From: Rhodamnia argentea
Taxonomy: Eukaryota; Streptophyta; Magnoliopsida; Myrtales; Myrtaceae
Direction: 5' to 3'
DNA length: 64,000 nt
Assembly: GCF_020921035.1 (NCBI RefSeq)
Contig: NC_063152.1
Location: 4,197,001 to 4,261,000 of the forward strand
Shown here: piece by piece, positions 7,505 through 42,173 of the stretch
How positions within the stretch are numbered: position 1 is the stretch's first letter
How the letters are laid out: every line of letters begins with the position of its first letter
The notes under the pieces: model-generated
The model's database searches: none
What the model was told of the DNA's origin: nothing
What the model saw: the letters and a program-made list of their open reading frames with translations, nothing else
Position numbers and translations under genes: made by a program

Positions 7505-7577
7505 TAAAATGTACTCTCTTTTTTTTTTTGGTCAAGTAAAATGTACTTTATTTTTGGGGTCGGAGGTAAAATGTACT
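7505..7577. mobile_element. Two very short T-tailed insertions between three copies of one target sequence
   Basis: The 11 bp word taaaatgtact occurs at 7505-7515, 7537-7547 and 7567-7577. The first and second copies enclose 21 bp made of a T-tract ending in GGTCAAG; the second and third enclose 19 bp ending in GGGGTCGGAGG. Read on the minus strand, each insert ends in GACC or CC followed by an A-tract. This fits reverse-transcribed tail-only insertions with target-site duplications. Confidence 0.5.
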
Positions 7578-7739
7578 TCAAATTATTCATTTTTGGCGAT
7601 ATATGCACAACCTCATGACATGTTCATTATCGTGAACCTAGACACTATTTTGGTTCATTGAACTTGGTCATGTACCTCCGTGCCGTTTGTAGTTTCACAA
7701 AAGAACAGAACTAACAAAAAACAAAAAAAAAAAAAAAAA

Positions 7740-8045
7740 AAACAGATTCAAACTGTCCGTCGAGTCGCCACATCTCATGACGTGTACGAGTCGGGAATAA
7801 AGCACATGAGATTTCTCTGCCACGTGGAGCTTAGCTCTTCCACGTGTCAAATTTTTTTTACCACCTTCCACGTGCCATCGGACATCCCCCATCCCGCGTC
7901 CTTGGCAGTGGGGGATCACGGGGGCGCTTCGTGGCAGAACATGGGAGTCACGCTTCGTTAACGTGAACGGCCGTTTGACGCCGTCCGTCATTGCGCAGAG
8001 ACATCGCCGGCTGACTGACGGCAGTCAAAGTCAGTAGAGTCCACC
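7740..8045. repeat. G-box-rich dispersed repeat, copy 1
   Basis: About 300 bp duplicated at 9240-9575 in the same orientation. Shared landmarks are 'gccacatc.catgacgtgta', 'ccgtttgacgccgtc' and 'agtcaaagtca'. It contains three CACGTG G-boxes (7821, 7841, 7869). In plants G-boxes bind bZIP and bHLH factors; whether these are used is unknown, since no gene starts within 2 kb. Confidence 0.65.
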
Positions 8046-8205
8046 GTTACTATGGCAATGACGACAAAATAGGTTTCGGTAACATTTATCATTTTTATAC
8101 GAAGGAAATGCTTAAGAAAGATCGGTCCGCTCAATTTTAGGCAGCATGCGTAGTTTAATCTAAGTCACGTGCATGTTCAATTTTGACTATAGTTCATGGA
8201 GTTTC

Positions 8206-8244
8206 ATCTCAGGATTTTTTTTTTTTGTCGAAATCTCGGGATTT
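8206..8244. mobile_element. Very short T-tailed insertion with direct repeats
   Basis: atctcaggattt (8206-8217) and atctcgggattt (8233-8244) differ at one base and enclose about 15 bp consisting of a T-tract followed by GTCGAA. The minus strand reads TTCGAC-A(n), matching the insert end at 9343-9361. Confidence 0.5.
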
Positions 8245-8263
8245 AATGACGTTGGAATGTAGT

Positions 8264-8516
8264 TGTGACATCCCGGACTCGAGAAGTATGAAGAGATGGA
8301 CTAAGATCGCCTTGGCAATACTCGGGCAAGGCTAAGATGCTTCTCTCCAATCTCACATCACTTAGAGTAGAGGTCCTAGGCTAGTTTATAAGGATTTGGG
8401 AGCTTTTAACTTGCATGAGACCTTTTTCCGGGCCGGCTGTCCGAAAAAACAAAATCGTGAGGCTTGCAAAGCCCAAAACGGACAATATTATGCAAGTAGG
8501 ACCTCCGGGCGTTATA
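8264..8516. mobile_element. Solo LTR, 253 bp, with 5 bp target duplication
   Basis: The sequence begins TGTGACATCCCGG and ends CGGGCGTTATA, and is flanked on both sides by GTAGT (8259-8263 and 8517-8521), the 5 bp target duplication left by LTR retrotransposons. The usual terminal CA appears decayed to TA. The size suits a short LTR of the TRIM class. An internal 'agcccaaaacggacaatatt' string is of the kind common in plant LTRs. No second LTR or internal coding region is present, so it is a solo LTR left by recombination. Confidence 0.65.
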
Positions 8517-8639
8517 GTAGTATTCTTTGTTCGATATTATATGGAATTTTATATTAGGCTATCATCATCGTACTTTTATTTATCGTCTTACTATGTTGTT
8601 TATGTGACCGATGCATGCAATTATTAATTGACAGTGCAC

Positions 8640-9235
8640 AATCACATCTTGTGTTGAATTACACCTTCTTTTTTTTTTTTTGGTCAAAGTAACATTTTAT
8701 TCATTCCTGCAAAAAAGAGAGAGAAATAACGTAGTCCAACCGCAAACCAGACAAATTTCATATAAGTTCAAAGTAAAACAAGCTCCAAATAACGAGACGA
8801 ATCATCATAACAAGAATATGGATCACTCGCATAAATAGCAAATATTTGACTTCTTCAAATCAAGATCGACGATGGATCACAAAATCCGTCTTTAACAATG
8901 AGCATGCACCGAGATTTGAATTGATAAATGAACTTAAATAGATTGATAAATGAACGTAGTTCCTTGCTCGTTTTATTCCATAACTTGTTCGACTCCACAT
9001 GCTTTCTTCGCACAATCTCAACCACGTGTGAATTAGCGATGCACATCGCTCCTCTTCGAGATTTATTCTATTCTATACGATTATACATGTGGTCGCCCTT
9101 CCTCGTACTTACGGAGAAAACCCAAAAAAAATTATTGATAATGATCGAACTAAATATGATAATCGGGCACATGATGATAGAAAAATAAGCGATTTATTAA
9201 AAAAAGAAAAGAAGAAGAACACAAAAAGACAGAAA
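8640..9235. other. Intergenic AT-rich sequence
   Basis: A T-tract followed by GGTCAAAG sits at 8668-8688, resembling the reverse of the (TTTG)ACC-A(n) tails seen elsewhere, but no flanking direct repeat was found. Nothing else is recognised. Confidence 0.4.
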
Positions 9236-9239
9236 AAAA

Positions 9240-9575
9240 AAAAAAGATTCAAGCTCTCCGTCGATTCGCCACATCGCATGACGTGTATAACAACTAGCGC
9301 AAGAGGAATCAACCTATTCCCAAAAAAAAAATGTCCCTTTGCTTTCGACCAAAAAAAAAAAGTTCCTTTGCCACGTGTACAACGGGCGCAAAAAATACTT
9401 TCCTATTCCACGTGGAACTCAGCCCTTCCACGTGTCATCGAACATCTCGAAATGCGTCTCCTCGCGTGGGACCACGTGGGCGCTTCACGGTGGAGCGTGC
9501 ACTTCATAAACGGTCGTTTGACGCCGTCATCGCTCGCTGACCCACTATAGTCAAAGTCACTCGAGTCCAGCGGCC
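9240..9575. repeat. G-box-rich dispersed repeat, copy 2
   Basis: Second copy of the block at 7740-8045. It carries four CACGTG G-boxes (9372, 9409, 9429, 9473), the 'cggtcgtttgacgccgtc' landmark and the 'agtcaaagtcactcgagtcc' end. A short A-tailed insertion at 9343-9361 lies inside this copy and is absent from copy 1. Confidence 0.65.
9333..9371. mobile_element. Very short A-tailed insertion with direct repeats
   Basis: gtccctttgc (9333-9342) and gttcctttgc (9362-9371) differ at one base and enclose 19 bp reading TTTCGACC-A(n). Confidence 0.5.
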
Positions 9576-10457
9576 CCTTGGTATAGCATGTGGACATGGC
9601 GAGAAAGAATTGAGGCTCGCTTGCTTCCAAAAAGATCGTCAATTTAAAAAATAGATCGTTTGCATCGAATATTTTCATTATGATTTTTGATAAATTAAAG
9701 AAAACTTTTTTACCAAATCATTTATTTTTTGCAAAAACAAACGAAGCCGTACTTTATGTATATTTAAAATCCTTTCAATTTATCTAAGTATAAAAAGATT
9801 CAAGGAGATCTCTTCATCTATATTTTAATAAACATAATTAATTTACAACTCCATCATTTTGAATGCCCTCTTTTGCTCTGCTAAACTTTTCTTTTCATTT
9901 TTATATAAAATCCAAAACTTACAAGGAATACCTTCTTTTCTCAACAAAAAAAAAATCTCATGAAATAGTTCGAATCAAGCCTTTGTCTCGGCTACTCACG
10001 AGAGCTAACTAAATTTCGCAGAAAGAAGAATTATTTAAAAATATTTTTTGAAAAATAATCGTTTAAATCGCTTGCAAAAGTAAATGACAACAAATAATTT
10101 CATCAATTTTTTCAAATAATGTGAGCGATAATTTAAAAAAAAAAATTCTACAAACGAAACAAAATGGTACGTAGGATAAGGGCATAGCCATTGAGATTGA
10201 GTGACAAGCAAGTCCAAAGCAAAAGTGGGACCCAAAGTATGTATTTGGCCTTTGCTTGTGGAGAGATTCTTAATTTCGTCGAAATTCACCCGCGAATTAC
10301 GACCACGTACACCGTCCAAGCAGCGACCGGAGTACCACGTTAACGCCGTCCCTTGCACCCACGTTATATCTCCATTGTTTCTTCATCCTCTCGTCATTGT
10401 CGTCCTTCCATGTGCACACCATTTCACCATCATCTCCACACCAAGAAGAAACTCCAT

Positions 10458-10464
10458 TATAAAT
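10458..10464 (+). promoter_or_regulatory. TATA box of the DUF506 gene
   Basis: TATAAAT lies 69-75 bp upstream of the ATG at 10533, in a suitable position for a short leader. Further upstream the sequence returns to AT-rich repeats. Confidence 0.5.
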
Positions 10465-10532
10465 CTGTCCCCGCTTTCCTCGACAGTTCCTTCACGAACC
10501 CTCCACAGACCGGCGGACGGACGGACTGAGAG

Positions 10533-11544
10533 ATGGCCAGAGCCGCGCTCAGGTTTAGGAGGTTCACAGCGGCCTTCGACGATGCGGGGCGTGCACACGA
10601 GGGCGAGGGCAAGGGCAAGGGCGAGAGCCTCACCGATCTCTCCGACCTCGTGGCGTCGTTCCTCGAGAGGGAGGAAGTGATGAGAGGAGGAGGAGGAGGA
10701 GGAGAGGATGAGGAGGAGATGAGGCGAGAAGAATCGGAGAGCAGCTGCTGGTCCGACTCCGAGGCGACCAAGGACAAGCTGCTCAACTTGTTCCAGGGCT
10801 GCGGCGACGGCGGCGATGCTGTTGCCAATGATGTGAAGAGGAAGATCAGAACAGAGGTCGAAGCTGCGCGGGGGTTGGTTGCGAAGAATGGATTCTCGGA
10901 GGGGCTGAAGCGTCAATTGGTGATCAGTTTGCGTCTGAAGGGCTTTGATGCCGGTCGGTTTAGCTTCTGCCGCTTCTTTTTCAATTGTCTATCGACAAGA
11001 ATTTCTCAATTCCCAATGAGTTACTGACCAGTTTGTAATCCCACCAGGTCTCTGCGAATCAAGTTGGGACAGGACGCCCAGGCGTCCGGCCGGAGCCTAC
11101 GAGTACGTGGACGTCAATGTCGAAGGAACGCGCTACATCGTTGAGGTTTCTCTCGCCGGGCAATTCAAAATAGCGCGGCCCTCCGACCACTACACGTCGC
11201 TTGTCGAAGCGTTTCCTCCCGTTTTCATCAGCAGGCCGGAAGAGCTCCAGCAGGTGATCAGGCTGATGTGCGCGGCGATGAAGCAATCCTTGCAGAGCAC
11301 AGGGTTGCTCCTCCCTCCGTGGAGGAAGAAAAGCTATATGAAGGCCAAGTGGTTCAGTAACCACAAGAGGACGGCTCCCGACGAGGCTGCGGGTGCGAGA
11401 AGACTACCCGCCGTCAGGCACGAGAGTATGGCGGAGATATCGTATCGCTGCAAGGACGACGTCTTGAGCAAGACGAGGCCGAGAGCCGGGCATTTAAGCG
11501 AGATCTTCAGCGGCGGCGGTGGCGGCAACGGGAGTGGCGCGTGA
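10533..11544 (+). CDS. DUF506 (PDDEXK-like) family protein, 305 aa, two exons
   Basis: Exons 10533-10953 and 11048-11544; the 94 bp GT-AG intron splits a Gly codon (phase 1). The spliced product restores the DUF506 signature: GFDAGLCESSWDRTP (about 137-151) followed by GAYEYVDVNV (about 156-165), then YTSLVEAFPPVF, RPEELQQVIRLMCAAMK and PPWRKKSYMKAKW near residue 240. The N-terminal third is low-complexity, with a Gly run and acidic patch (about 50-70) and SCWSDSEATKDKLLNLF. The C terminus ends in a Gly-rich tail. The family is plant-specific and assigned to the PDDEXK nuclease-like fold, but catalysis is not established; Arabidopsis members such as RXR3 affect root-hair growth. Length fits the family. 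The long minus-strand frames over exon 1 are GC-skew shadows. Confidence 0.9.
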
Positions 11545-11559
11545 TCGCGGCAGCCGGAT

Positions 11560-13235
11560 TCTTTTGCTTTCCAAAGTTTTTATCAATCGGTTCCAACTCT
11601 TTTGGAAGAGTAGTCACAATCCAGTTTTGGTCCAAAAGAATGGCCTCAAAGTGAAGATTCTCTTGCTTGTCTTTCTGGTTAGTTTTCTGGATGATGATGG
11701 GGACATTCCAGTTGATAGATAAAGACTGTACAGATTTTGGCACATTGTGTACAGAAGATTGTTGAAAAGTGAAGAATCGGATTCGGATTTCCATTCGAAG
11801 TTGGCATACAACCATTTTTAAGATGGGTTAATACCACGGAAAAAGACGATTGAGAAATCAGATTAGCATAATCTTGAACGTCAGTAAATGGATATTTCTA
11901 GCCAATTGCCTTCTCAAAATGTCGATGGTGTATTTTCTTAGTAATAAAAGGGCTTGACTTAAATCTCTTTTTATATTCTCATTTGCACCTCTTCGTACAA
12001 AGTCTATTATCAAAACAGTCATCATGACTATTAGGCAATCGTCACACAAAACTATGGGCTAATGAGATAGCTATCACGCAAGTTAACGTGATAAAACGCA
12101 ATTAATGTGGATTTCTTTTCTGGCTATGTTCATTAACTATGTATTGATCCGCCGATCCTCTCAAATTATTCACCTATTGAATACTAACACTTAATTGTAA
12201 CGATCTTGTCTGAGGAGGGCGGAGAGTAAGCGTCGAGGCGGCACGAGGGCCTGGACAAGGAATGCCGTGCAACGAACAGGTGAAAACTGAAATTAACCCC
12301 GGTGGGGTGGTTCGGAATGGTGGCGGGGACGAAAAGAATGAGCTCTGGGAAAGGCTTCGAGTATGAGCGAAAGCTTGGAGCCGATGCCCTTCATCCTGCT
12401 CTCAAGGGCCTGTTGTAAAGAAGAGGACTTGAGGAGTCATCGATGGCGTCGACGAGGAGGAGAAGCCTCCCATAAACGAGCAAGCACAGATTGGGGATGC
12501 AGTCTGAACGGAGAAGTAGAAATTGACGTGTTCCTTGCATGAATTGAGTTGCCGGAGAAGCTTGGTTGATGCCTCGAATGGATGTTACTGTGTTGTTGAG
12601 CACGAAGTGTTCACGTCGGATTCACGAACGAGGTCACGAGAACTCCCGGCGAAGAAGAGGAGGAGGAGTCTTGGGCCGCACTCAGTCATCGGGCCTGCAA
12701 GTTCGTTCCTTGGGCAGGTCCACCGCGAGCATTGATCCAGTCATGGTTTGGGGCGTACCTCCATCCAACCCAGAGCAACTCACTAGTTTGTTCTTCTTCC
12801 ACCAGCCAATGCGCGAGATTTCTCTGGACAGAGACAGAAGAAAGGAAACAGGTGCGATACGAAGCTCGACCGCGATAAGTTTTGGGTCTTTCGATTCTTT
12901 AATCGGTTGCTGTGTGCCGGAGCTGTCCGCCGGAGTCGCTTGGGATCCCCACCGGAGTTTTTCTTGATCTGTTCTGGTAGCTCCGACCTCAAAGATTGCA
13001 GCTTTTTTCTTGATCAGGCGACACCCGGATTCTCCTTTGTCGGTAAAACTGTTCTTTCGTGAGAAGTCGACTGATTGTTCGCGAAATGTTGTTTGGTCAA
13101 GCTCAGAAGGCGACATCAGTTTGAGTTGCTTGCTTTTTTATCTTTGGAACGGAGCTTTTAGAGTCTTGTACTAATTGTGTTATATGGGGCCGGTGGGTAA
13201 CGCAGGTTCTTGCGCCTGCAGATCGAGAATTAACA
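11560..13235. other. Intergenic, nothing firmly recognised
   Basis: Holds the 3' flank of the DUF506 gene and the 5' flank of the CFAP20 copy. GC content rises at 12200-13100 and short frames occur on both strands, but none shows family motifs, repeats or convincing splice structure. The GC-rich part could be the decayed promoter and leader of the CFAP20 pseudogene. Confidence 0.4.
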
Positions 13236-13242
13236 CCTCGAG

Positions 13243-15077
13243 ATGTTCAAGAACACTTTCCAATCAGCCTTGTGTAATTCCTCTGGGCTTTGGCTCTTTG
13301 GTTTCTCAATCTAGTTTTCGCATTTTTATTGTTGCTTCTGTACTGAAAATGTGTATGAACTTCTTGGTTTCTGCAGGAGCAAGCCCTTGCAGATCTGGGG
13401 TAAAGAAGGAAAAGGTAGTTTCTGCTTTGAAAGAGCGGATAGTGCTGTTGATGCTGCTTGTTATGTTCAATTCGTGCTTAGGCATGATACTGTCATTGCA
13501 TCGTTTTATGTTGATCTTTGTTGTGCCCTCTCCTTATTCAGTTATGCCTCTGGGGAATAGGGCATTCTTTAGAAATCGTTGTCATGAAGGTTAGATGTTC
13601 TATGGCCACGATACTAGTACTGACTGCCTGTCGGTTTCGTTGATAATGCTCGCATCAATTTCATATCTTTCCCGCCATACTTTGCTTTAAAGATTTCAAT
13701 TTCTCGAAAATTGCATGGTTTTGAGTCCTGCCAAATACGACTAATTATCTGGTCTTTTGCAATTTCTTCTGTTGAACATAAATTTGGTTCCTTGTTATTT
13801 AACCAAAAGGACGACTCACATGACTATTTTTTTTGGTATTGGCATCCAACTTGCAGTGGTTAACGGTCATGGAAAACGTCCGCAAGATGAGGACATTCAG
13901 TCAAATGTCCTTGAGATTGTTGGCTCAAATATTCAGTCCACATACATCACGTGCCCAGCAGATCCAGCTGCAACACTTGGCATAAAACTGCCATTCTTGG
14001 TTATGATTTTAAAGAATCTGAAAAAATACTTCACCTTTGAGATCCAAGTTCTGGATGACAAGAACGTGAGGCGGCTCTTCCGTGCTTCTAATTTTCAAGT
14101 GTGTAAGTTTGCCCGTATTGCTATATTTGTTTTCTGGTTTGGACAACTTGTTACTAGATTTTATTGGCCCTAAAAGTGTAACAGATAGACAGATCATGCC
14201 ATATGGCCATAGGTGGAAATTTCTAGCCTGTAGTGGTCCTTGGACTTGAAATGAGATTTCATCTGGCATTTAGAAACCGATGGTTCTGCAGTTTCAGTTG
14301 TTTTGACTACACTGTGTAATCGCAATGCTGGAGGAAAAGAGACTTGCAAAAGGAAAATCATGGATCTCTCAATCCCAAGCTGTGTTGTTAATGAAATGGC
14401 AAGGGAGCTTTTAGCTATCAATAGATTTGAACCACCTATGCAGGATCATATTCATGCGAACTCTACAGCCTGTAATTGGCTTCATGCTGATTCATTGCTC
14501 ATACCGAGATAACTGTCGGTGGAGATTGGAGGGACAACTTGATATTTATTTACTTACTTTCTGAATCAGCTGGATAAGAAGCCCTTTCTCCCTAATGGAA
14601 TGGGAAATGGTTTTAGTATGCACTCCATTTTATGACATGTTGCATATAACACCCTCTCCTTCTATAAAGTTCTATATGATTCATGTACACTAAGGAATTG
14701 GCATTGCATGTAACCTTTCGGTCTTGCATTGCGGGCTGTGACTAGGGTCGAGCCATATATTTGCACCATGCCGTTGATGTTGGATGAAGGATGGAATCAG
14801 ATCCAGTTAAATCTCACTGATTTGACGGGGAGAGCATACGGAACCAACTATGTCAAGACATTGAGAGTACAGGTACATGCAAACTGCCGTCTAAGAAGAA
14901 TCTATTTCTCGGACCACCTTTAATCCGAAGAGGAACTTCCACCAGAGTTTAAACTCTATCTTCCCATGCAGGTGAGATTGCCTTCTTCAAGAAACAGCTG
15001 GTTTTTGAATGCCTTCTCTTTCCATGCTATCTCTTGTTGGCTAACTCCCAGTACTCTCTCTGTTGCAGAAAAGTTAG
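13243..15077 (+). pseudogene. CFAP20: CFAP20/BUG22 pseudogene with introns retained
   Basis: CFAP20 (BUG22) is a highly conserved cilia-associated protein that plants without cilia also keep. Recognisable pieces: exon 1 start 13243 (MFKNTFQS, then lost homology), exon 2 13377-13414 (SKPLQIWGKE), exon 3 13857-14098 ([51 protein letters not shown]), exon 4 14735-14971 ([41 protein letters not shown]), last exon 15069-15077 (Lys-Ser-stop). Defects: exon 1 lacks the conserved FLSILYSIG segment and a donor in the right phase; the exon 4 acceptor AG has become GG (14733-14734); the conserved Tyr after SDHL is a TAA (14921-14923), cutting about 20 residues. Introns are present, so this is a DNA-level duplicate, not a retrocopy. 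An intact parent must lie elsewhere. Confidence 0.85.
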
Positions 15078-16400
15078 GAACTTTGGGCGAAAGGTCTCCT
15101 GATCGGTTACTCGCGACACAAGCGGGACCTCTTGAATCATGTGATGCGTATGGTTATCCCGTCGCATGTTACACGGCTGTGAACTTGATGGACTGTGGTC
15201 AAAATCTTGGGCCTTTATAAGCTTACTCACTGTTGTAGTTAGCTATGTATGTCTCTTCCTCCTGATATCTGTTATAATTATGGCTAGAAATAGCATATTG
15301 GGGCAGTCATTTCACACCAATATCTAGATGGTATTAGTCTCCTACCTGGCTCTGACCTGTGCTCTCAAATCTTATTTCTTTCCTCTCGAGTCTTGCCACT
15401 TTGTGCATTAGTCCGTATCACGACGCGTTCGTGGCTGAATCTAGAGCCTCTCAGCAGTCATATATGAAGATCACTTGCTCTGATCTATATCTTGATGCCG
15501 CTCCGGAGGTTGGCCTTGAGGAAACAAATGGTGGGGTCGCGTTGCTCGTGTCTCGGAAATGGGGACATTTGCCTAGTCGATTGGTTTGCTAATATCATAA
15601 TAGCATAATATCGTGGTAACATGCTACGAATATGAGTATTACATGGTGTATATGCAATTTTGCCAGTCAAGGTCACTGAGCACTGGATTTCCTATTTTCG
15701 AGAAATTTCGTTCTTTCCATGATATTCCTTTAAAAAAAATTATGTATAATTAAAATAAATTTTGCCGAGAAAAGTTATCAGCAAGATGAGTTACACTGTC
15801 ATGTCAAGAAGATTTGCCCTCTTGAATTTAATGCAACAGGACAAAAAGGCTAAGAAGAATGGATTCTAATCCTGTTTAATTGCTCCTGGAAGACCTCTTT
15901 GCAATTATTTCACGTTAGTAAAATAATAGGTGATTGCACTCAAAACCAAGCAGCACCACGCCCACCGGTGTTCAATACATGTGGTCACTGATTTGAGTTG
16001 ATTTACTTAAGTATATCGGACAAGTAACAGGATCGAAGTTACTGAAGCTGCCTACTCGAACCGTCGGGTTATCTCCTCGTGCTCTTCAAAATTAATTGGT
16101 GGAACAATTGCTGCCTCGGCAATCTGGAAGGCATAAGGAGTAGTTTTCTCCTTTTCCAAAAGCTTTGTTCATGGCAATTATATCTAAAGTTCCTACCAAA
16201 TGCAGCTCATTTCATTTGACTGGCTTCTGAAGATGGTGGGATAAGCTACACGTTACTGTCAGCCACGAGAATGTTTGATGATGCCTGTGTATTGCAGCTA
16301 ATGTTTCCTACTACATTTCTCTCACTTCAATGCTAAAAAGGCGCTAACTCCTAGCAACGCAGAAGATATATATCTCTGCAAAGGAGACCTCTTCGCTTGC
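15078..16400. other. Convergent intergenic stretch
   Basis: Lies between the CFAP20 pseudogene and the 3' end of THO1. Apart from the repeat copy at 15688-15870, nothing is recognised; the right part should hold the THO1 3' UTR. Confidence 0.4.
15688..15870. repeat. Dispersed repeat shared with 4115-4370
   Basis: It carries the same ordered motifs ('ttcgttctttccatgatatt', 'gatgagttacactgtcat', 'aagaagatttgccctctt') as the copy at 4115. The core between them has changed by small indels. Confidence 0.6.
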
Positions 16401-16402
16401 AC

Positions 16403-19400
16403 TCATCCTACTGTATCTAGGTCAACTTCAGCATCTGTCTCTCCATCCACCGTTCCTGCTTCTGCTTCTGCTTCTGCTTCAACATCTGCTTCCAACTGGC
16501 CTGGCTCTGGGCCGATGTCTGTGTCGGACCCCTGCTTCAGATGTTCATCCAGTGCCGGGGTACTGCCTTGGGAATCATTGACAGCTGCGGCACTCGCTGA
16601 GTCTGTGTCCATGGGTATCGCTGTTGTTTCAAGATCCCCTCTCATACCTTCACCATCAACCTCACTTGCAGGTGTAGCAATCTTCCCAGAAAAATAGATA
16701 GAAGATGAAATATTAGTATAGACACCAGAGAAGGTAAAATAGCAACGTAATGGTGAAGAAGCAACCATCCACATGGATGCTCCTTCCTCCCTCTTTTTTC
16801 TTCCGTTCTGAGTTATGAAGTTTAACGTAACGATTATTACAGCTTTACCACAATGTCTAAAACCGCAAGAGAATCCCACATGTATCAATTTAAATCTGAT
16901 TGAAGGTATCAATTGACAGCCATACTTAAGCAGGCAGCCACAACTTTCCTTTGGATAAACCTAAGATTGTCATAGAGCACTACCCTGTGCAATCCCATTC
17001 ACTAAGTGATGATGAGCATAACCACTTCCAGCACAAATCCATCATGACCTGTCTCAACAATTTAGCTGCATAGCACGGGGTGACTCCTTATACGTGGCAA
17101 AGCATACCACATCTCTTGCTCCTCTTGTCACATACCAAGCAAAGTTTCTTTCAGTAACAACAAAAGGGAACATTTTAGATTACTTTTAAGTGTAAGTCTT
17201 CATTTGCCTGTGATTTAACTGGGCTTTAATCTAAAAGTGACATCCAATATACAAGAAACACAAATCTTTGAATACATGCCCTTCAAAATATTTGAATTAT
17301 TTCTTTTATGATCTAGAGCACCTGATTTTCTTCAGCTTGCTGAGGAGTAATCTTTGTTTCTTCCTTCTTAGCACGTTTGGATCTCTCATTTGGCTTAGCT
17401 TGATACTTCGACCGAATGTCGGATGGCAAAAGTTCAAGAGGCACAACCCCTTCAATGCCATGGTCGGTGAACTACAAGGACAACCACAGGACACTGTTGT
17501 TACCGAGAGTATAACACAAATACATGCCTGAGCTATTGTAAAGTTTAATCAATTCACCATACTCGAGAAAATCCTTCCAAATCCTGCCGAGCCGAAAAAC
17601 GAAGACCTTTCCAACAATATACCTGCATCAAGTGCAGCAAGTTTTCACCCAATAAATTATCGAAGGGATCTTGGAGAGCGGCACCAAAATGGGATCTTTC
17701 CACCCAAAAAGAGATGAAACGAAATTAAGGGATACAAGTTTTACCCGATTATTCTTGTGATGATAATCGTCTTCTATTCCAGCTGATAGATCCATCTGCA
17801 TTAAGGGAGCCCTTGACATCTCGATAATTCACAACTTGAAATGAAAGAAAATCTAAGGAAACACCTATATGAAAATTTTTCCAAGGCTTAATGATAATGG
17901 AAGATGATATAACTGCATCAATATCCAGGACTTACATCTTCAGCCAAGGGTTTCCAGTACTCCATAACAGCAGGAGTTCGGACACGTTGAGGATTGGTCA
18001 ATGCATTCTTGACAGGTCAAAAGAAGAGTAGTTATTCTTTGATAAGCAGAAAAGATACATCAATCATACGGCATTGCGTAAACCTTTTGTGAGTATTTTG
18101 CATTATCAGAAGCTTATTTTCATCATGTCACGGAATTGATTTGACATCGACACAATTTTCAACTGTTTAAAATTTGTCGCCATATAAGTCGATCAACATC
18201 CGTTAAAATGGATGGTAGCTCACAGATGGTAGAGACATGCGATTTCAGGATTTTCTTCAAATTCCAAAAGAATGAAATCACTCACTTTCCAAATACTGAT
18301 ACCAGATATATGGTAAATAATTATTCCACAGGAATCAGAACAAAGTAAAACAGAAATGGTAAGTTCCTGAATTAAGCACAAAAATCTCTCTTCAAAGAAA
18401 TGAAAGGGAAAGACCACTGTATCTTTCAGTGGTAATGCCTCTTTTGTAAATATAGGCACATTTCGCACAGAGTGATTATGTCTTTTCACCAAAACTTAAG
18501 ACTGCTGGTAAGCCTTCAATTATAGAGTTAGAAAGGATAAAAAAGCTACGAGACTGTTATTGCATCTTGAGCGGCCTTACCAAAAAAAAAAAAAGCTACG
18601 AGACTACTGATATAATGATGTGCATCTTAATATAATGATCTACAAGTCAATAATATGTCAACAAATCACACTCCAGAATATGTTATGCCTAGTATGAGGA
18701 TGTCAGTGTACAAAATCGGTAATAATTTCATCAGCTCTCAGGAACTTCTTTGGGATCCTGGAGATTACCGTTTACAATATAATAGGGGAAAGGGTCTCCA
18801 TACACCAATATTCTTTCACCCTCGTTGTACAATGCATACTGGCAGATCTCGCACTTCATTTATTCAATCTTTAAACTATAGTAAGGGAAATAAATTCTTT
18901 TGCTCTTAGACTTTGTAAAACACCAATCTAATAACCAGCGTTTTCACACTCCAATAAGTATTTCAACCAGTAACCAGTTGAACCACCGAGTTAATCGTTT
19001 ATTCAAAGACATTTATTTTAAAAATCAACCGAAGTCAGAGAGTTGGCCAGGTAATAAATTGTACTAAGGAGGCCAGCAACCCAAGTTTGATGCAGAATAA
19101 CTATCGACTTCTTCATTCCAGTAAAATCGCATGGCTCAGTGGCGGTCAATGCCAGTTCAATCCCATTTAGGACCATTCACTGTTTGATATTAACTGGACC
19201 AAACAATGGTCTACAACTGGTTAAACATGCCATTTGGATCTAGTTACAGAGCCGTAGCATGTAACAGATATACAAGTTCTCTAACCTCATGTGCACCATT
19301 TTTGTAGCAAGAAAGCTAAATAACACTCTAAAAAGGTGAAAAGAACAAAGATTGCAGCAAAGCCAGTCAGCACAGCAGAAGCTGTGATAAATGATAGATC

Positions 19401-26265: not shown

Positions 26266-26269
26266 ATTA

Positions 26270-26600: not shown

Positions 26601-26700
26601 TTACTTGATATGCAACGACGCATTAGGAAGCGTCAACATGTCGTGTCTCGTTCACCAATTTGAACTCGCTACCTAATTAACGGCCGCGATTTTCCAAACA

Positions 26701-26707
26701 TATAAAG
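26701..26707 (+). promoter_or_regulatory. Putative TATA box of the 27013 gene
   Basis: TATAAAG is about 310 bp upstream of the ATG. The implied leader contains a (GA)n run at 26848-26868, common in plant 5' UTRs. Confidence 0.35.
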
Positions 26708-26847
26708 TCGAGATGGTCAGCCTTTTCTGCGGCCGGGATTCATCCGTAGTGTACATGCGAGCTAGGGCACGCTCCAGTGGATCCTCGTCCTCGCTTGAAG
26801 TTGAAGAAAGAGGAAGATAGAGGGAGAAAAGAGACGCGTTTCCCTGT

Positions 26848-26868
26848 AGAGAGAGAGAGAGAGAGAGA
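26848..26868 (+). repeat. (GA)n microsatellite in the 5' leader
   Basis: Uninterrupted AG/GA dinucleotide run of 21 bp between the putative TATA box and the ATG of the 27013 gene. Confidence 0.8.
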
Positions 26869-27012
26869 CGCCGAAAACAGACGAAATCCATTCATTCACA
26901 CGGCGAGAACAGAGCGAACTCCTACAACTCTTCACATTCTCCGCACCAAAATCCTCCTCGGAGCCTCGCGGATCGGGCCGCCGCCGAGCCGAACTCGATC
27001 CGCCACCGGTCC

Positions 27013-31163: not shown

Positions 31164-31169
31164 AAATAA

Positions 31170-32330
31170 GATGAAGTGGTGGATTGGCAGCTCAGGAAGA
31201 TGTGATACAAAATTACATCTACAGGTTTCGTCGATGCAAAGGGAGAAAGCAGAGGTTTCTTTCCTTTGCGGACCCAAGCAAGAGTCTACGGGACTTCCAT
31301 TTTTTCATGAGCTGTCAGCTTTCATCTCTGCCCTTTAACCCGAGTTATCCTGAGTTCTTGATCATTCTGGTCAGTACAAGGCGGGCGCTGTGCTTAATTT
31401 TAGTTGCTAAACATTGATTTGCATCTATTCTTTGAGTCTGGACTTGCTGGAGATGCTAACTTAAATGTTAGTGGAACGAGATACATAGTTAAACTCTTGA
31501 CACAATGATTCCTTTGCAGCATGTTTATTTTCAAGAGAAGCTTAAGGATCTTATCTCAAATGTGCAAAACAAGTTGGTTTTTTTTTTTTCCCCTCTGAAT
31601 ATAGGGCAATGCCAACTCACCGTCACTTGTCAATGTAAAACAGCGGCAAAAGTCGCAGTTGGCTGGAAATTAATGATTCAATTCGCCTGGATCTTAGTTT
31701 TTTGAAACCTTTGAAACTTGTGGTAGTTTTCCTTTTCCCCTTTTTCCTTTTCCTGTTGGCAGTCTTGGGTTTTGTTTCCTTCTTCAGACGCCTATACGAC
31801 AGTTGCAGAAACTTATGAGCAAAGCTTTAATGTTGGGGCTTTTCTCCATGGAATGATGAAGTTATGGTCATAATTCGTAGTTGGTGTTGATGAACTGGAC
31901 CCGCTTAAGTTTCCCTCCGGTCGAAGGATCCAATTGAATTGAGTTAGGATTGATTAATTGGAGATTGACCCTTTTGGAGTAAAGGGGGCCCATTGCTAAT
32001 AGTTTCATCCTTCAGATCTTCCCAGCTTGATTCCAACCACTTTATTTTCTTTTGTCTCTCTCTTCCATGTCTCAAATTTACATTATAAGCGGAGAGAGTA
32101 CGTCTTGCCATCCCAAACCGAATTGTTGATCTTCCGATGGGCAATGATTGTAGTAAGGCTGCCATACAAAATTTAGTTAGTAGGTGATGCAACATGCACT
32201 TGTCAGATACTGAACAAGACCGACTTGCTTAAATGGTCACTGTAATTAGGCCAGAAAAAAAATTAGTTTTGTCAAACAAACTGTTAAGTACCTAGCATTA
32301 CTCGAGCTCATAGTATAACTACCAATCGAA
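31170..32330. other. 3' flank of the EAR-motif gene
   Basis: Probably contains its 3' UTR. No coding sequence, inverted repeats or tandem repeats were recognised. Confidence 0.4.
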
Positions 32331-32338
32331 TTGCCTAC

Positions 32339-34369: not shown

Positions 34370-34379
34370 TTGCTTACAA

Positions 34380-35250
34380 TGTGAGGATCGATTTAGTGGT
34401 CAAGGGATGGTTCGATTCATTGCTAAATCTTTGCCTTGTTATTGGAAACTGGCACTAATTGCACTGTAACAACCATGATAAGTTGAACCACCGTTCATAA
34501 ATCTCATTCATGCAATAATAAAAAATTCAATTGTAAGATTCGGATAGCCTCTTAACACAGTTGCATAAAATTAAAGCTCGAGATTGGAGATCCTATCTAT
34601 AAATAGCGAAAAGTCGATGCAATTCCACGTTCGTGAATCACAAAGACATGACCATGAGAGTCAAATCAATACTGAAATGCACAAAGAGAAATCTCGAGTT
34701 CTCTTCTTCAGCCCTAAAGCCAAAAGGAAGGGCGTGTTCTGGACGGCCAAGGAAAGTGGGCAAAAGTGCCAGAGGGAGGAAAGGGGAAATAGGCTTAAAA
34801 CAAGCTAAACCACAAGCTAGACAGAGGGTCGTCCCAGGGGAATCTTTGCTCTTTTTAGTATTTACACGTCGTCTGTTCTCCTGATCTGGCCAGCGCCCTC
34901 ATCAAATCAGTAGAAAGAGGAGGACAGAGACAGGGGTGCAGACAGGGACCGATCCCTGTGCTGTTGGTCCCATCCCATCTCTGCACCCCTTCGCCTAACC
35001 CAACTGGTGTCCGCACACACTTCTTCGCTCAGCTCAGTATGCCCGCCTGTTTCGACTGTGAACGCCCACTGATGATAGGATTTATAAGTACGACGAAAAA
35101 TCTCGTCTTGAAAATTAATTTTTAGAGTAAGAAAAGCTCAAGATCATCTAGTAGTTTTCCATTTCAATTTGTATCTTGAAATGACTGGCGGAGGGATGTC
35201 ATTTTTGTGTCCCTTCCCTAAATTGTAATAACAGCGCAAATGATCTGTGA
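34380..35250. other. Intergenic, nothing recognised
   Basis: Contains a short basic open frame near 34633-34884 with a GRPRK string, but no family match or promoter, so it is not called as a gene. Confidence 0.4.
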
Positions 35251-35259
35251 ATCTTGACC

Positions 35260-36400
35260 CGACGTGTAACATCGTACTTAAAATTTTTAATTTATTTAGT
35301 GTGGTCTCCAACCAATGTAAATGTTCGATGTAATTCCTGAATTGTATATAAGTGTTTAATTTGTTCGGAGACCATATTAATTTGCTTAGTATGGTCTCAA
35401 ACTATGAATATTCGACATAGTAGTCCTTAAACTATATGAAAGCGTTTAAAAATTCATGGATCGCAACAAACATTGAATCAAAGTTTGAGGACTACATCGA
35501 ATAATTAAAAGTTCATGGACAATATTGTACATTTGATCAAAGTTCATGGACAGCATTAAACAAATTAAAACTGCAAGTTCAAGGATCATTTGTGTCATTT
35601 TTTTTCAACATTTTACATCTTAAATACTCTAAAACATTATTCGCAAAGATCTAGGGATGACCGAGTTCGAGCTGGAATAGCTTGTGCTTACTTGATGCGT
35701 GCAATCGAATTTTTGCACTATCTTGCATTTATTAAGATTTCGGATTTTCGACATGACAATACTAACATGAATAAATTACGGGTGTAGCAATTTTGGCCGA
35801 CATATAACATCATCCCTAAACTTTTAATTTATGCAATGTGGTCCATGAACTTTGGCCGAATTGTGCAATGTTGTCCCTATACTTTTAATTTGTTTAGCAT
35901 GATCTCGAACTATTGTAAATGTTCAATGTAGTCCCTAAAATATATGAAAATGTTTAGAAGTTCGGGGCCCATGTTAATTTGTTTAGTGTGGTACTATTGT
36001 AACTATTCACAACGTAGTCTATAGATTATATGAAAATGTTTAAAAGTTTAAATGCCATATTAAAGATTGGACCAAAGTTCGTGGATTACATAGAATAAAT
36101 TAACGGTTCGGGGATAGCATTGCAAATTGGACCAAAATTAAGGGACTACATTGAACAAAATAAAAGTGCAGAGTTGGCATTGTACATAGGACGAAAGTTC
36201 ATAGACCATTGGTATCATTTTTCCCGAAACAGGTTAAATACTCTAAAACATTGTTCGCAAAGATCTAGCCGTGACCGAGGTCGCGATGGAATAGCTTGTG
36301 CTTACTCAATGTGTAACCAAATTTTGGACTATTTTTTGCATTTACTAAGGTGCCGGGATTTCGGACATGACAATATCAACATGAATAATAGCCGGAGTAG
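35260..36400. repeat. ~610 bp direct duplication made of degenerate sub-repeats
   Basis: Sequence from about 35628 ('aaatactctaaaacatta', 'gcaaagatctag', 'gcttgtgcttact', 'gacatgacaatac') recurs from about 36235 in the same order. Between and around these are degenerate sub-repeats like 'ttcggggaccatgttaattt' and 'tagtccctaaactatatgaa'. The same sub-repeat family occurs at 41345-41690. Confidence 0.65.
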
Positions 36401-36784
36401 CATGTTTTCTTGCGTGGATAAAAAAGGAAAACAAAAACATCAAATTTTTTTCCCCTATGTGGTAATGTGTCTTATGCCATATTAGGAAAACATCTCTTTT
36501 AACCTTTCCAATTTTGGAATTTTGCAGCTTTGTGGTTGATGAATGTATACATGGGTTTGGACACTTTCTTCCTCTAAAAATCTCAAATGTTGAAGCAAAT
36601 TCTATTTACAACTAAAAAGACGATATTTATTGTTGTAAAGACAGTCTATGAAAAGACTAAAAAAGAAAAAAATTAAAAAATTGATCGATAAAAATTCCTA
36701 ACCCTAAAAATATGGGGGTGAGACATATTGAACTCTTTGTATAGAGTCAAAATTGTGCTTTGCTTCCGTACGTGAAATGTACAC

Positions 36785-37015
36785 TTAGGTTTCGCTTGTC
36801 CGGCAGAAGACAAACAATTTAGAAAGTAATTTTCTAAAAATGATAGCTTGCATCACATATAAAATATTTTCACCATGCACGAATATGTATAAGGTACAAA
36901 TTGTTGCCAACAATGAATATATTTTTCATGAATCAATTATCTCAAATTATATAAACGATTATTTTTCAGGCAAATATTCTTTAAATCATATATCTTTCGT
37001 AAAATAAATGAATTT
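36785..37015. mobile_element. Copy of the AT-rich MITE-like family
   Basis: It shares 'gtaattttctaaaaatgat', 'atattttcaccatgcacga' and an inverted 'aaacgattatttttcaggca' end with the family at 6017-6207. Ends are imprecise. The rest of 36400-38640 is AT-rich with no gene recognised. Confidence 0.45.
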
Positions 37016-37125
37016 ACTAATGGCATTTTTTTTTTATAACAAGGGGAAAGGAAGGGTTTGGTGACTTGTCATCATAGAGGGCACCTTCAAAGTTCGAATT
37101 CCTTCATGGTGAAAGGTAGCATTTG

Positions 37126-37167
37126 AAGACCAGAGTTGTGAGGAAAAAAAAAAAAAGACCAGAGTTG
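37126..37167. mobile_element. Very short A-tailed insertion with 13 bp direct repeats
   Basis: aagaccagagttg is identical at 37126-37138 and 37155-37167 and encloses 16 bp reading TGAGG-A(n). Confidence 0.5.
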
Positions 37168-38647
37168 ACTTGTGAATGTTCCATACGAGCATCTCATGAG
37201 ATTGATCGGCAAGATAAGTAATTAAGCACTTCTATAATCTCTCGAGAGACCAATCCCGGTCATTGTCGTCTGTCTATCCGAATATCCAACAGTCGAAAAT
37301 TGTTGAAGTCTTTGTGAGATATTACATTACTATATAAACACTACGATTAGATGAATTTATGAATTTGGGTATGACATGTTATAGCGGGAATCGTCTTCTC
37401 TTTCAACTGATGATTAGTGGGCACTTTGCTCTTTGGTCAACATAGGTGATCTGCAAATTTCTTTAAGAATTCCGAACTCGAATGACCATTAACCTCGTAA
37501 GAGTTAGACAAAAGAAGGAAGAGACAATGAGGTGGTGAATGGGTGCTGACAAGGCAATGCGACGCGATGGGGGTTGCGTAAAAGTATTTCGAAAGAAAAA
37601 TATACGAAAAAAAAAGGCGAAAGCCGATATATAATATAAGAATTCTTAGGTTACATTTTCTTCCATTCTCCTGGTTATGGTTTTAAAATGTGTTTGGTCA
37701 TCTAAATTTCTAGTCATGATAGAATTGAATAATAAACTATACTAATATATCTAAAACATGCAATATATACAAGTACTGCATATGTGTATTGTATATTGAA
37801 AAATAGAAAGAAATTCACTTACATAAATGAAATTAGAGATAAATAAAAAAAGAAAATTGTTTTTTTGTTTGTTGTCTTGAATTTATTTTTTGTATTGGAA
37901 TTTAAATGCTACTTATATTTCATTTTTACTAATATAACAAGTTTTTTTATTTGAGAAAATTAACTATTGTATTATAGGCTTATGAACTCCTATCCACTTT
38001 TATTTTACCCATCAAATATGATATTCTTATCGGAGTTATGTCAATCTAATGTCAGACATTATCTTGTCTCCGAGCAGAACCAAACACTAGATAAGATAAA
38101 TTTTATCTTCGTCTTTTACCCCGACTACCAAATGCAACTTTAATTGGTAGGTGACAAAATAATGGTTATGACTCACGTCAATATTTAACTATATCGAAAT
38201 AGTAGTGATATTTATGTACTTATGACCTACCAATGAAAAGAGTAGTTACAAATAAAAAATGTCATTTTATCATAGTTAAAGTAAATATGACTCCATATGC
38301 AATCCATGTTTAAAATTTTATGTGGATCACATTAAACATGCAATTCATCAAATTGGAAATTAGTGGAAAGTCACTTTCAATGATAGGAGGAAAGAAGCAC
38401 ACAAAGCCAACGAAAGACGATACAATCTCAACTATAAATTCACACATTATTGTTACAAATGAATAATTAATTGGAAAATCGTATGGTCCGAAATAATTGA
38501 CGATCTTGTAAACTATCAAGCTAGTAACTTTCAAATCAAAACTATGACGGTGTAACGTGTAACCTTTGGAAACACTAATCCAAAGTACGGTTATTTTTAT
38601 AATTATTTTAATGTAAAGATTCTAACTCCAAATTAATTAAAAAAAAA

Positions 38648-38650
<3 letters not shown>

Positions 38651-38690
<40 letters not shown>

Positions 38691-38710
38691 CTCTCTCTCT
38701 CTCTCTCTCT
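38651..38710 (+). repeat. (AT)23(CT)7 compound microsatellite in the promoter/leader
   Basis: An uninterrupted (AT) run at 38651-38696 passes directly into a (CT) run at 38697-38710. It lies 150-210 bp upstream of the ATG at 38859. The AT run could serve as the TATA region and the CT run as a pyrimidine-rich initiator/leader element. It is likely to be length-polymorphic. Confidence 0.9.
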
Positions 38711-38858
38711 ATTTCGAGATGATAAAAGCAAGAAAAATTCATTCATCAACCCTTCAAAGTCCAAGAAGATCGAAGAGCCTTCCCTCTTGAACAGCAGATA
38801 AGACATTTCTCCCCCCCCCTCTCCTTCCTCCATCGCTCCCATCAGGAAGGCCCACGCC

Positions 38859-39485
38859 ATGAAGAAGCTCTACCGCAGATCAGTCACCGTCCACCCCTCG
38901 CCGCCCCCGGCGCCCCCGGCGCCGCCCATCTACGACCACAACCACCTCCTCTCCCTCCTCCCCGCTGCCATCCTCGCCCTCACCGCCGCCCTCTCCCCTC
39001 AAGACAGGGAGGTCCTGGCCTATCTTGTCTCCAGCTACAACAACAACCACTTCAACAACCGCGGCAAGAACAGAAGCAGCAACTGCGACCACCCTCCTTG
39101 CTTCACCTGCGACTGCTTCCGGTGCTACATGAGCTACTGGGTCCGGTGGGACTCGTCACCGAACCGCCAGCTCATACACGAGGTCATCGATGCCTTCGAG
39201 GACGGGCTGGTGCTCAAGAGCAAGGGCAAGAACCACCACAGGGGCGTGAAGGGCAAGAACGGCAGGGACAGGAGGAACAGATCAGGGCTCGGCGCCGCGC
39301 AGCCGGCCGCCGAGCCGAAGGGGCCCGAGCCGAGCCCGGCCAAGAGCGAGTCGGCCGACAAGAAAGAAGAGGCGAACTCTGGCGGCGGCGAGGTGGGTAG
39401 CGGCGGAGAGGAAGAGCTGGAGAAAGGGTCGGTGAGGAGGCTGGTGAGCTTCATCGGAGAGAGGATTTGGAGTGCTTGGAATTGA
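38859..39485 (+). CDS. Uncharacterised Cys-rich plant protein, 208 aa, single exon
   Basis: Intronless frame with a good start context (cgccATGaag) and codon use unlike the AT-rich flanks. It starts MKKLYRRSVTVHPSPP and has a Pro-rich stretch to about residue 25, a hydrophobic helix LLSLLPAAILALTAAL (about 30-45) and DREVLAYLVSSY. The conserved core is CDHPPCFTCDCFRCYMSYW, then VRWDSSPNRQLIHEVIDAFE (about 75-115), with five Cys in CxxxxCxxCxCxxC spacing that could bind metal. A Lys/Arg-rich stretch and an Ala/Pro/Glu-rich linker lead to the C-terminal SVRRLVSFIGERIWSAWN. I have seen this core in plant hypothetical proteins but know no function. The paired C-terminal aromatic helix and mid-protein hydrophobic helix may contact a membrane; that is a guess. 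Confidence 0.8.
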   Translation: MKKLYRRSVTVHPSPPPAPPAPPIYDHNHLLSLLPAAILALTAALSPQDREVLAYLVSSYNNNHFNNRGKNRSSNCDHPPCFTCDCFRCYMSYWVRWDSSPNRQLIHEVIDAFEDGLVLKSKGKNHHRGVKGKNGRDRRNRSGLGAAQPAAEPKGPEPSPAKSESADKKEEANSGGGEVGSGGEEELEKGSVRRLVSFIGERIWSAWN

Positions 39486-39839
39486 TCTTTGGAGAGGAAA
39501 AATTAACAGAGCTTGCTCAAGTTTTTGCCTTTTCCTCTCACTCGCTGCAAGTCTGCAAGGCCCAAGGTAGTGAGCGTTTCTTCTTCTGCTTCCTCCTCCT
39601 CCTCCGCCACTCTCTTTCTTTTTTGGTTTTAGGTTCTGTACATATTTATCTTTCGCTTTTGCAATGTAAAGAACGGAAGGAGGTCTCGATTAACTGCAAG
39701 CTCGCTGAAGAAGACGAAGCTGATTTGCTTCTTCTCCTTCTTTTTTGGGCTTCTTTTCTTAAAAATGGAGTTGCAGAGTCTCTGTTGGAGGCTTTCTTTT
39801 TCTTCTTCTTCTTCTTTCTTTTTGTGACTTAGAGATCTC

Positions 39840-40500
39840 GCGTCGTCTTTACTTGTGCCGATCACCGCGGCGGTTAATCCCCTCACGGGAGGGCGGGTCG
39901 CCACCGGCTCTCCCCTACAAACCTAGTGATCGGAGAGACATTGCCGGAGATTTGAACTCAGTACCGGCGGCTGCGCAGCCGCAGCAGCAGCATCCGACCA
40001 TTGGCCACGGTTGTTTTTGTTTTTCTGTTTGAAGTGTCTGCAGTTCAAAGATGGCTAGCTACAATTTTTTGTTTTTTTGGCCTTACCTTTCAATTTTGGC
40101 AAACGGGTTTTAGTTGTCGAGCGATGATCTAAACTTTAGATTGAGACATTAGCAATTAATTAACAACAAAATCTAGGCGGCTGATTTGGTCATTAGTGGG
40201 GTGTTTTTTTTTTTTTTTTGGGTCAGAATTAGTGGGGTTCAGTCCCATGAGACATTAGCAATCAACATAGCGACACATGTGGGAGACCAAGAGGACCGGT
40301 CTAGTCCCGTGATGTTCCGAGGCGGGTTTCGTTGTTGCTGCTGCTTAAGTGGCTTCAAAACGGCGCCGCTTTGGGGGGAGGCTGGTATCTCGAGGTTGTG
40401 CGCAAAACGCCGTGCCGTTTTGTCAGAGATCGAGAGACCGTTTCTGGGTACTTGGAGTTGGGAGCTAGCCCCAACAAAAGGAAAATGGAATATAAATATG
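39840..40500. other. 3' flank and intergenic sequence
   Basis: Contains the 3' end of the 38859 transcript unit and the short insertion described at 40192-40238. No further gene recognised. Confidence 0.4.
40192..40238. mobile_element. Very short T-tailed insertion with 11 bp direct repeats
   Basis: attagtggggt is identical at 40192-40202 and 40228-40238 and encloses 25 bp reading G-T(n)-GGGTCAGA; the minus strand ends TCTGACCC-A(n). Confidence 0.6.
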
Positions 40501-40532
40501 TTTGCTAAAGTATGCTTAACTTAATAATTATT

Positions 40533-40679
40533 TGCGTAAAGAGTAGAAAGAGGGAAAGAGGAGGATCAGCTTTCTCTCTCTTTTGACGTAGCGAGCCCCG
40601 TGGGAAGTTCGCACGACGGGCTATTCGCTCAGTGATAGAGCGCGCCCCTGATAATTGCGTGATTGTATCTGAATTGTGA
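40533..40679 (+). other. Nuclear plastid DNA (NUPT): rrn16-trnI spacer and trnI-GAU 5' exon
   Basis: The segment matches the plastid rDNA spacer: 'gtagcgagccccgtgggaa', then 'gttcgcacgacgggctatt', then the first exon of trnI-GAU (40618-40654, ending at the anticodon GAT and AA), then the start of the trnI intron. Differences from the plastid consensus as I know it (for example TTCGCTC for TTAGCTC, AGTGATAG for AGTGGTAG) show it has been decaying in the nucleus. It lies between two identical 19 bp words, gcttaacttaataattatt, at 40514-40532 and 40680-40698. Confidence 0.8.
40618..40654 (+). pseudogene. trnI-GAU: Truncated plastid-derived trnI-GAU first exon
   Basis: 37 nt corresponding to the 5' exon of the plastid isoleucine tRNA gene, with substitutions in the D-arm. 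The second exon is missing, so no functional tRNA can be made. Confidence 0.75.
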
Positions 40680-41344
40680 GCTTAACTTAATAATTATTCG
40701 TGCTGTTAAATGTTAACAAAAATTGAGGGGTCTTTGTGGTACGACCCACTCGTCTAATTAAAGAGGTTTTTGGTTCCAATTTATTTGTTTATTGGCTTCG
40801 ATTAAAGCAAAGTACGTTTTTTGAAAAGGAGGGGTTGGTCCAATCCAAACTCCAAGTCCAAGGCCACCCTTCCAAACTCCTTTTCCGTTGTTCCCCAAGA
40901 GCATCTTACTCTATCCTTTTTCCCCCCCGAGATATAATAATTATCACCGCTATCGATTTAAGTTTTTTTTTTTTTTTGTAAGTTTGATTTTTTCGATATG
41001 GCATCGCAATTGGATTCTACCCTAGATTTATTCTTCGAGCGAGGCTCTCGATTCGCTAATTTCACGTGCCGTTCTAAGTCCGATTTGCTCGTGACAGGAT
41101 TTGTTCAAGTATCTCACGTCGGTAGCTCGGGAGCTTTATTCATTTAAGCTTTTTTATTTTGTTGGAATTTTTAACAACATTTATAATTGGTTTCTCCAAT
41201 TTTGGACAAAAGGAAATATTTATCGAAAAAAATAAATGATCTAATAGTTTATTTATTTTTATCGTATTAAGTAAATCAGTTGGATAATAATTGTTTTAGC
41301 CGAATAGAAGTGACGAGTACTAAAAAGAATGAGGGATAATGGCA

Positions 41345-41690
41345 TAAATGATCCATGAACTTTGATTGGATATATAATGTGATCCCTGAATTTTTAATCT
41401 AACAAATATGTTACCTAAACTTTAACTCAATAAGCAATGTGATCCATGAATTTTTAATTTAACCAATATGATCAACCGAGTCCCCGATTTATAGGAAGAT
41501 GTTTAATATAGTCTTTTCATTAATTCAAGTTTATGGACGATATTGGATATTTTCTTATTGTTTAGGAACTAAGTTGAATACGTTCCAAACGTTCAAGAAT
41601 TATATTGAACAAATTGAAAATTGATTAAAAGTTTAAGAATCATATTGCATATTGGGTCAAAACTTAAAGATTATTTGTGTGAATAATGAA
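41345..41690. repeat. Degenerate sub-repeat block related to 35260-36400
   Basis: It has repeated phrases such as 'gtgatccctgaatttttaat' and 'gtgatccatgaatttttaat', resembling the sub-repeats at 35260-36230. Confidence 0.5.
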
Positions 41691-42125
41691 TAACTATGAA
41701 TGATAAGGAAAAAAAAAACAAGTTACCAAACAAAAAACCGAACGTCGGAATTTTAAAATCAAGGAACTTTGAAAGGCAAGATTCATTCTTCTTAGATAAA
41801 CCCATTTCAACATGAGATAATAATCCTGTCTTTACACATTTTTTTCCAATAATATGAAAAAGACTAATTAATTAATTAATTAATGGCAAGAGGGAACCGA
41901 AAACAATCGCCTTTTTAGGAAATTTCGCACTCTTGTCTTATCACCTTTTACCCCACTCCCCATATAAGAAAAGAAAGTGTCTAATCTAAAAAGATCACGA
42001 GCATCTTGGAATTGCGGATTTAGGGTTTTCACTTTCTGTTGGGCTCAATCAAGTTCATTGAATGTCCTAATCAATAATTGCGTGTACGAGTTGTGGGGAC
42101 AATTGCCGGAAGTCTCGGAGAACAA

Positions 42126-42173
42126 TCAAGGAAATTGCTTCGGACCAAAAAAAAAAAAAAATTCAAGGAAATT
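42126..42173. mobile_element. Very short A-tailed insertion with 11 bp direct repeats
   Basis: tcaaggaaatt is identical at 42126-42136 and 42163-42173 and encloses 26 bp reading GCTTCGGACC-A(n)-T. Confidence 0.6.

Follow-up and report, generated by a model that had tools for sequence, protein, structure and literature searches.

A 64,000-nucleotide (nt) stretch of the Rhodamnia argentea genome (C3:4197001-4261000, hereafter the window; the genome comprises 346.7 Mb in 74 contigs) contains a class of tiny insertions, each consisting of a short core followed by an A-tract and enclosed by a direct repeat. Judged from sequence, these inserts are very probably L1-type long interspersed nuclear element (LINE) insertions, made by target-primed reverse transcription and cut down to about the last 7 nt of the element plus its tail, because the four LINE 3' ends read in the same genome finish in GAYC-A(n), an A adjoins the nick, and empty paralogs carry a single repeat copy. 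An earlier note on the window had proposed either extreme 5' truncations of one LINE or short interspersed nuclear element (SINE) family, or a product that consists of the tail alone and has a biology of its own. The idea of LINE truncation is supported by the LINE ends, the A at the nick and the empty paralogs, and is refined on two points: several LINE subfamilies appear to have acted as sources, and insert sizes cluster near 7 nt, which keeps part of the second idea alive.

All seven loci described in that note, with inserts on either strand, were found at their coordinates (Table 1) by direct reading and were then recovered by a repeat scan; the repeats have one mismatch at 8206 and at 9333 and are identical at the other five as given there. 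The insert length of 15-35 bp reported for them holds only if the A-tract is counted, the non-A part being usually 5-10 nt and most often 7 nt.

Enrichment of the insert class

Flanking repeats (ungapped score of at least 10) were found at 7 of the 57 A-runs of 8 or more in the window, compared with 0.4 on average, and never more than 1, when the flanks were re-paired ten times. These seven comprise six of the described loci and an additional candidate at 7837-7877, the locus at 8206 scoring 9. When the sampled regions were added, 44 of 325 A-runs were repeat-flanked (re-paired mean, 4.6). The exact string GACC-A8 occurs five times in the window, where 0.11 occurrences are expected. Enrichment of the motif is pronounced across the whole genome: exact matches to TTYGACC-A10 on both strands number 1,583 (816 forward, 767 reverse), versus 15 (8 and 7) for the same pattern read backwards.

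Two samples were drawn for closer comparison. The first consists of 59 TTYGACC-A10 sites (anchors; regions L001-L028 and L035-L064) out of the first 100 listed of the 1,583, all of which lie on C1 (97 in the first 16.2 Mb, three in 16.2-19.1 Mb); poly(A) is part of its selection criterion. When the upstream 90 nt were aligned, gaps allowed, to the sequence that follows the A-run, 49 of the 59 anchors scored at least 16, versus 5.9% of 1,167 re-paired controls. The second consists of 334 unselected A-runs of 8 or more (window and L001-L034, anchors excluded; insert of 3-30 nt allowed), of which 21 are repeat-flanked, although the L021 array alone supplies three of these rows and A-rich sequence a few more, all of them weaker. 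The core ends in ACC at 10 of the 21 (16 of the 313 others) and in GACC at 7 of the 21 (5 of the 313 others); cores in this sample include TTAGACC, TTGGACC, TTCGACCC, TTTGACCCC, CTTTACC, TGGAC (twice) and GTCGGC. Six arbitrarily picked 10-kb regions yielded two or three members only, with longer or odd cores, and thus the density of the class varies along the genome.

A sharp size class near 7 nt

In 40 of the 59 anchors (re-paired control, 0.6%), the left repeat stops 4-9 nt short of the A-run; in 20 of these 40 the distance is exactly 7 nt. The remaining anchors are six at 10-75 nt, three at 0-2 nt and ten below the repeat threshold; the distance of 75 nt (L013) is a choice of the alignment, and the ungapped repeat at that site puts it at 7 nt. 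TTCGACC forms the core of 46 anchors and TTTGACC that of 13 (33 and 7, respectively, among the 40), tails measure A10-A22 (first 49 anchors), and the target duplication is of variable length, mostly about 9-19 bp. Among the unselected inserts, 18 of 21 measure 3-10 nt and three measure 17-26 nt, those longer than 30 nt being outside the count. The inserts thus fall into a class of their own size, around 7 nt, instead of forming the lower end of a wide range of truncations. A constant stopping chance would not give 40 of 59 anchors in a 6-nt interval and six in the next 66 nt. The 7-nt motif in the anchors partly sets the lower edge of this class, although the unselected set has the same range of 3-10 nt. 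The surprise lies in this sharpness, with about 7 nt dominant where gradual truncation would yield a spread.

Several repeat units occur at some loci. At L021:7990-8200, five or six TTAACTCTTTATT-like repeats are separated by the cores TTTGACC, TTTACC, CTACC, AGAC, TCGACC and ATCCGACC, each with an A-tract; this array is the product of repeated insertion at one target. In L061, a region of 317 bases, AAGTC is followed by two TTCGACC(C)-A(n) units in succession, and GGGTCGAAG after the second forms an inverted repeat around the A-run.

Empty sites and target sites

Joined flanks of candidate insertions (99 queries) were compared with the sampled regions, giving 135 junction-spanning matches, many of those listed coming from AT-rich tandem repeats; filtering of the queries by name prefix took out the tandem repeats together with a few true members (e.g. 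L029:1328 and L024:2007). The insertion in L027 (core TGGAC, 17-bp repeat) has three paralogs of 90.6-91.8% identity with a single repeat copy, and that in L015 (TTCGACCC, 17-bp identical repeat) has one single-copy empty paralog (81.8%). Weaker empty paralogs were found for L012 (76-78%) and for window 7837-7877 (73.6%). Empty sites with one repeat copy, by which the earlier note had proposed to tell insertion from slippage, are thus present at paralogous sites, clearly so for L027 and L015. Candidates not counted are L048 (72%, gap at the junction), window 33049 (80.7% to L030, insert uncertain), window 26330, L018:8630 and L021:8147.

The left repeat copies of 40 members of the class were lined up on the base that follows the A-run. 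Position -1 is A in 30 of them, position -2 is A in 28, and position -3 is T or A in 30. The L1 endonuclease prefers TT/AAAA. By these base counts the target sites look endonuclease-cut, the A next to the nick resembling that preference.

LINE copies as the source

The genome contains LINE open reading frame 2 (ORF2) genes, recognised by zf-RVT matches alone: there are 907 zf-RVT candidates, of which 150 were scored, with all those listed over the cut-off and several in open frames of more than 1,300 amino acids. The 3' ends of four copies, picked for open frames of 1,385-1,419 amino acids, were read (Table 1). All four end in GAYC-A(n) and three in GACC, the comparable length being only about 7 nt. 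The earlier note had envisaged source LINEs ending in TTYGACC-A(n); the four ends include the close variants TTTGGACC and GTTGACC, and none reads TTCGACC. The C3 copy, a single case in which the tail stands directly on ORF2 coding sequence, may reflect a template jump after the last few bases or early polyadenylation. That otherwise different LINE ends have the GAYC terminus in common suggests a bound recognition element.

The string TTGTTTGGACC-A10 has 18 matches, versus none for its reversed control; 12 of the 18 are on C5, and two places, on C7 and C8, are both 843 nt past a zf-RVT match. Nine of the 18 cluster at 28.6-29.9 Mb of C5, which suggests a locally amplified block. A Pfam search of two LINE tail fragments gave no match, and therefore no RNase H domain is claimed; LINE motifs sought by regular expression were likewise not found in the sampled regions.

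Searches for a longer body

At 60 ACC-A7 sites the preceding 1.5 kb were compared and revealed no common family or body, only overlaps and short dispersed matches; the idea that the core is preceded by a long LINE or SINE body was therefore set aside. Repeat searches extended to 2.5-6 kb gave weak long candidates only (L008, L014 and L016). Neither the window nor L012, L015, L027, L065 and L066 gave a tRNA or Rfam match. With no common body, tRNA or Rfam match, the inserts lack the RNA polymerase III promoter or tRNA, 5S or 7SL head of a SINE. Derivation of the core from a tRNA, B-box or U6 sequence was dropped in view of the variable third base of the core and the negative tRNA and Rfam searches of the window. 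A strong-stop hairpin just upstream of the tail is likewise not supported, the C7 and C3 LINE ends folding no better than shuffles.

Other features of the window

Two GACC-A sites, 8681 (...TTACTTTGACC) and 6886 (...TTAACTTTGACC) on the minus strand, look like longer, older ends of the LINE kind; for the corresponding two of the five GACC-A8 sites, at 6879 and 8674, no repeat partner was found within 9 kb. Window 6886 (minus strand) and L030:6712 have 48 bp at 85% identity in common, about 215-262 nt upstream of both A-runs, and may be two ends of one longer element, since the match is equally distant from both tails.

A diverged, CACGTG-rich copy pair (7743-7990 and 9246-9545) lies upstream of a PDDEXK_6 gene, and the tiny insertions are not the same in both copies. 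A tandem array at 342-1729, with a unit of about 219 bp containing A-tracts, scores in repeat scans but is unrelated to the insert class. Pieces of a DUF3537 gene are found at 56889-58104 on the minus strand.

Table 1. Insertion loci and related sites in the window, and 3' ends of the LINE copies read
Feature	Position	Strand	Structure
Double-insert locus	7505-7577	-	Three TAAAATGTACT repeats at 7505-7515, 7537-7547 and 7567-7577
First insert of 7505-7577	7530-7536	-	Core CTTGACC, then A11
Second insert of 7505-7577	7556-7566	-	Core CCTCCGACCCC, then A5
Insertion locus	8206-8244	-	Core TTCGAC 8227-8232, A12 8215-8226, flanking repeats with one mismatch
Insertion locus	9333-9371	+	GTCCCTTTGC / core TTTCGACC / A11 / GTTCCTTTGC; one repeat mismatch
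Insertion locus	18539-18605 (18541 in the earlier note)	+	17-bp identical repeat, its leading As common with the tail
Insert of 18539-18605		+	GTTATTGCATCTTGAGCGGCCTTACC, 26 nt, end CCTTACC; A13 at 18582-18594
Insertion locus	37126-37167	+	AAGACCAGAGTTG / variant core TGAGG / A13 / repeat
Insertion locus	40192-40238	-	ACCCCACTAAT / core TCTGACCC / A16 / repeat
Insertion locus	42126-42173	+	TCAAGGAAATT / core GCTTCGGACC / A15 / repeat
Additional variant candidate	7837-7877	-	Repeat CACGTGGAAG / GTGGT / A8 / repeat; empty paralog 9400-9486
Longer LINE-like 3' end	8669-8705	-	AATGAATAAAATGTTACTTTGACC-A13
GACC-A site	6878-6896	-	AACTTTGACC-A9
LINE copy C7			In-frame stop, 31-nt 3' untranslated region, end TTTGGACC-A16
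LINE copy C2			End TTCATGACC-A20 or more
LINE copy C1			End CTTTGATC-A14
LINE copy C3	L065:270-314		GGTTGACC-A13 directly on ORF2 coding sequence, at a point past which the C1 and C2 copies go on

Alternative explanations

Replication slippage, or tandem duplication with filler DNA, would leave repeats and an A-tract with no inserted RNA copy, and several repeat units do occur at window 7505-7577, in the L021 array and in L061, as in a tandem array. This explanation is nevertheless very improbable, because the paralogous empty sites carry one repeat copy; it is also at odds with the recurrence of one 7-nt motif at unrelated places on both strands, with the differing cores inside the L021 array and with the A at the nick. 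Just as hard to credit is an origin from the tails of many unrelated polyadenylated mRNAs, of which the LINE machinery would have copied a few bases: such a source would suit the variety of the cores and the C that precedes the A-run in 16 of 21 cases, but a single motif is far too common (1,583 versus 15), and GACC stands before a third of the repeat-flanked unselected A-runs (7 of 21, versus 5 of 313 others). Somewhat less remote, though still unlikely, is a separate minimal retroposon, a short polyadenylated RNA of about TTCGACC-A(n) (e.g. one cleaved from LINE RNA) that the LINE machinery would copy in trans over its whole length. It would account for a sharp size class with a mode of 7 and for the lack of TTCGACC at the LINE ends read, but the real ends TTTGGACC and GTTGACC are close variants of that core, and two anchors have longer inserts, of 17 and 56 nt, with the same ending.

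Several observations weigh against truncated LINE insertion. TTCGACC, the commonest sampled core, is at none of the four LINE ends, and a 7-nt match is unable to prove descent from a particular LINE. The ten anchors below the repeat threshold and the nine more aligned at 0-2 or 10-75 nt mean that up to 19 of the 59 could be ordinary longer inserts, beyond the view of the 90-nt scan. The cores TGAGG, GTCGGC and GTGGT fit poorly. The empty sites are paralogous, standing in for orthologous ones, and the nick-site base counts stand without a shuffled control. A stop structure just upstream of the tail was not found (fold z of -0.43 for the C7 end and -0.80 for the C3 end).

Comparison with known systems

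The inserts resemble 5'-truncated L1-clade LINE insertions in having poly(A), variable target duplications, an A-rich nick and no 5' part, and a tail that resembles the 3' ends of ORF2-bearing copies in the same genome. Usual LINE 5' truncations range over tens to thousands of bases, whereas about 7 nt dominates here. Simple poly(A) insertions in human disease genes are tail-only products ascribed to the L1 machinery; the inserts resemble them in this, but the human cases are single events of unknown source and the R. argentea inserts are a genome-wide class with a readable source signature. Like SINEs, the inserts are short LINE-mobilised insertions with a LINE-like 3' end, but they have no head, promoter or body. 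An account of a plant L1 lineage (PMC3747384) describes a conserved 3' end, a stem followed by CGAG; conservation of a short 3'-end sequence is common to that lineage and to the GAYC before the tail in R. argentea, but for the latter no conserved stem-loop has come to light. The passages available from PMC4859970 state that no consensus has been identified for LINE-1 or SVA 5' truncation and that one report implicates stem-loops, and those from PMC5135761 contain nothing on where truncation falls. A literature search, confined to open-licence PMC papers and partly poorly aimed, found no description of this insert class.

A possible mechanism and its implications

Each locus would represent a separate LINE insertion. 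An L1-type endonuclease would nick one strand at an A-rich site, exposing a T-rich 3' end to which the poly(A) tail of a LINE RNA can anneal. Reverse transcriptase would then copy the tail and, beyond it, some 7 nt from the 3' end of the RNA (roughly TTNGACC). Once synthesis has stopped, joining of the product to the far side would leave about 7 nt plus A(n) between target duplications of about 9-19 bp. The enzyme may halt shortly past the poly(A), possibly through the hold of the LINE protein on the GAYC terminus of the RNA, and the variant cores TTGGACC, TTAGACC, CTTTACC and TTTGACCCC would derive from different LINE subfamilies. Somewhat more tentatively, abortive target-primed reverse transcription may be frequent in this genome, stopping at a protein-held sequence of about NTNGACC and leaving footprints of nicks without a readable copy.

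If so, such footprints would evade repeat finders and may occur in other genomes. Provided that many LINE events do stop within about 7 nt, the footprints record starts of target-primed reverse transcription that are missed by copy counts. They would also explain many short A/T-tract variants that lie between small direct repeats and are passed over in annotation. They would then amount to a genome-wide map of endonuclease targets and enzyme stall points, and the question of why LINEs are 5'-truncated would become testable from sequence.

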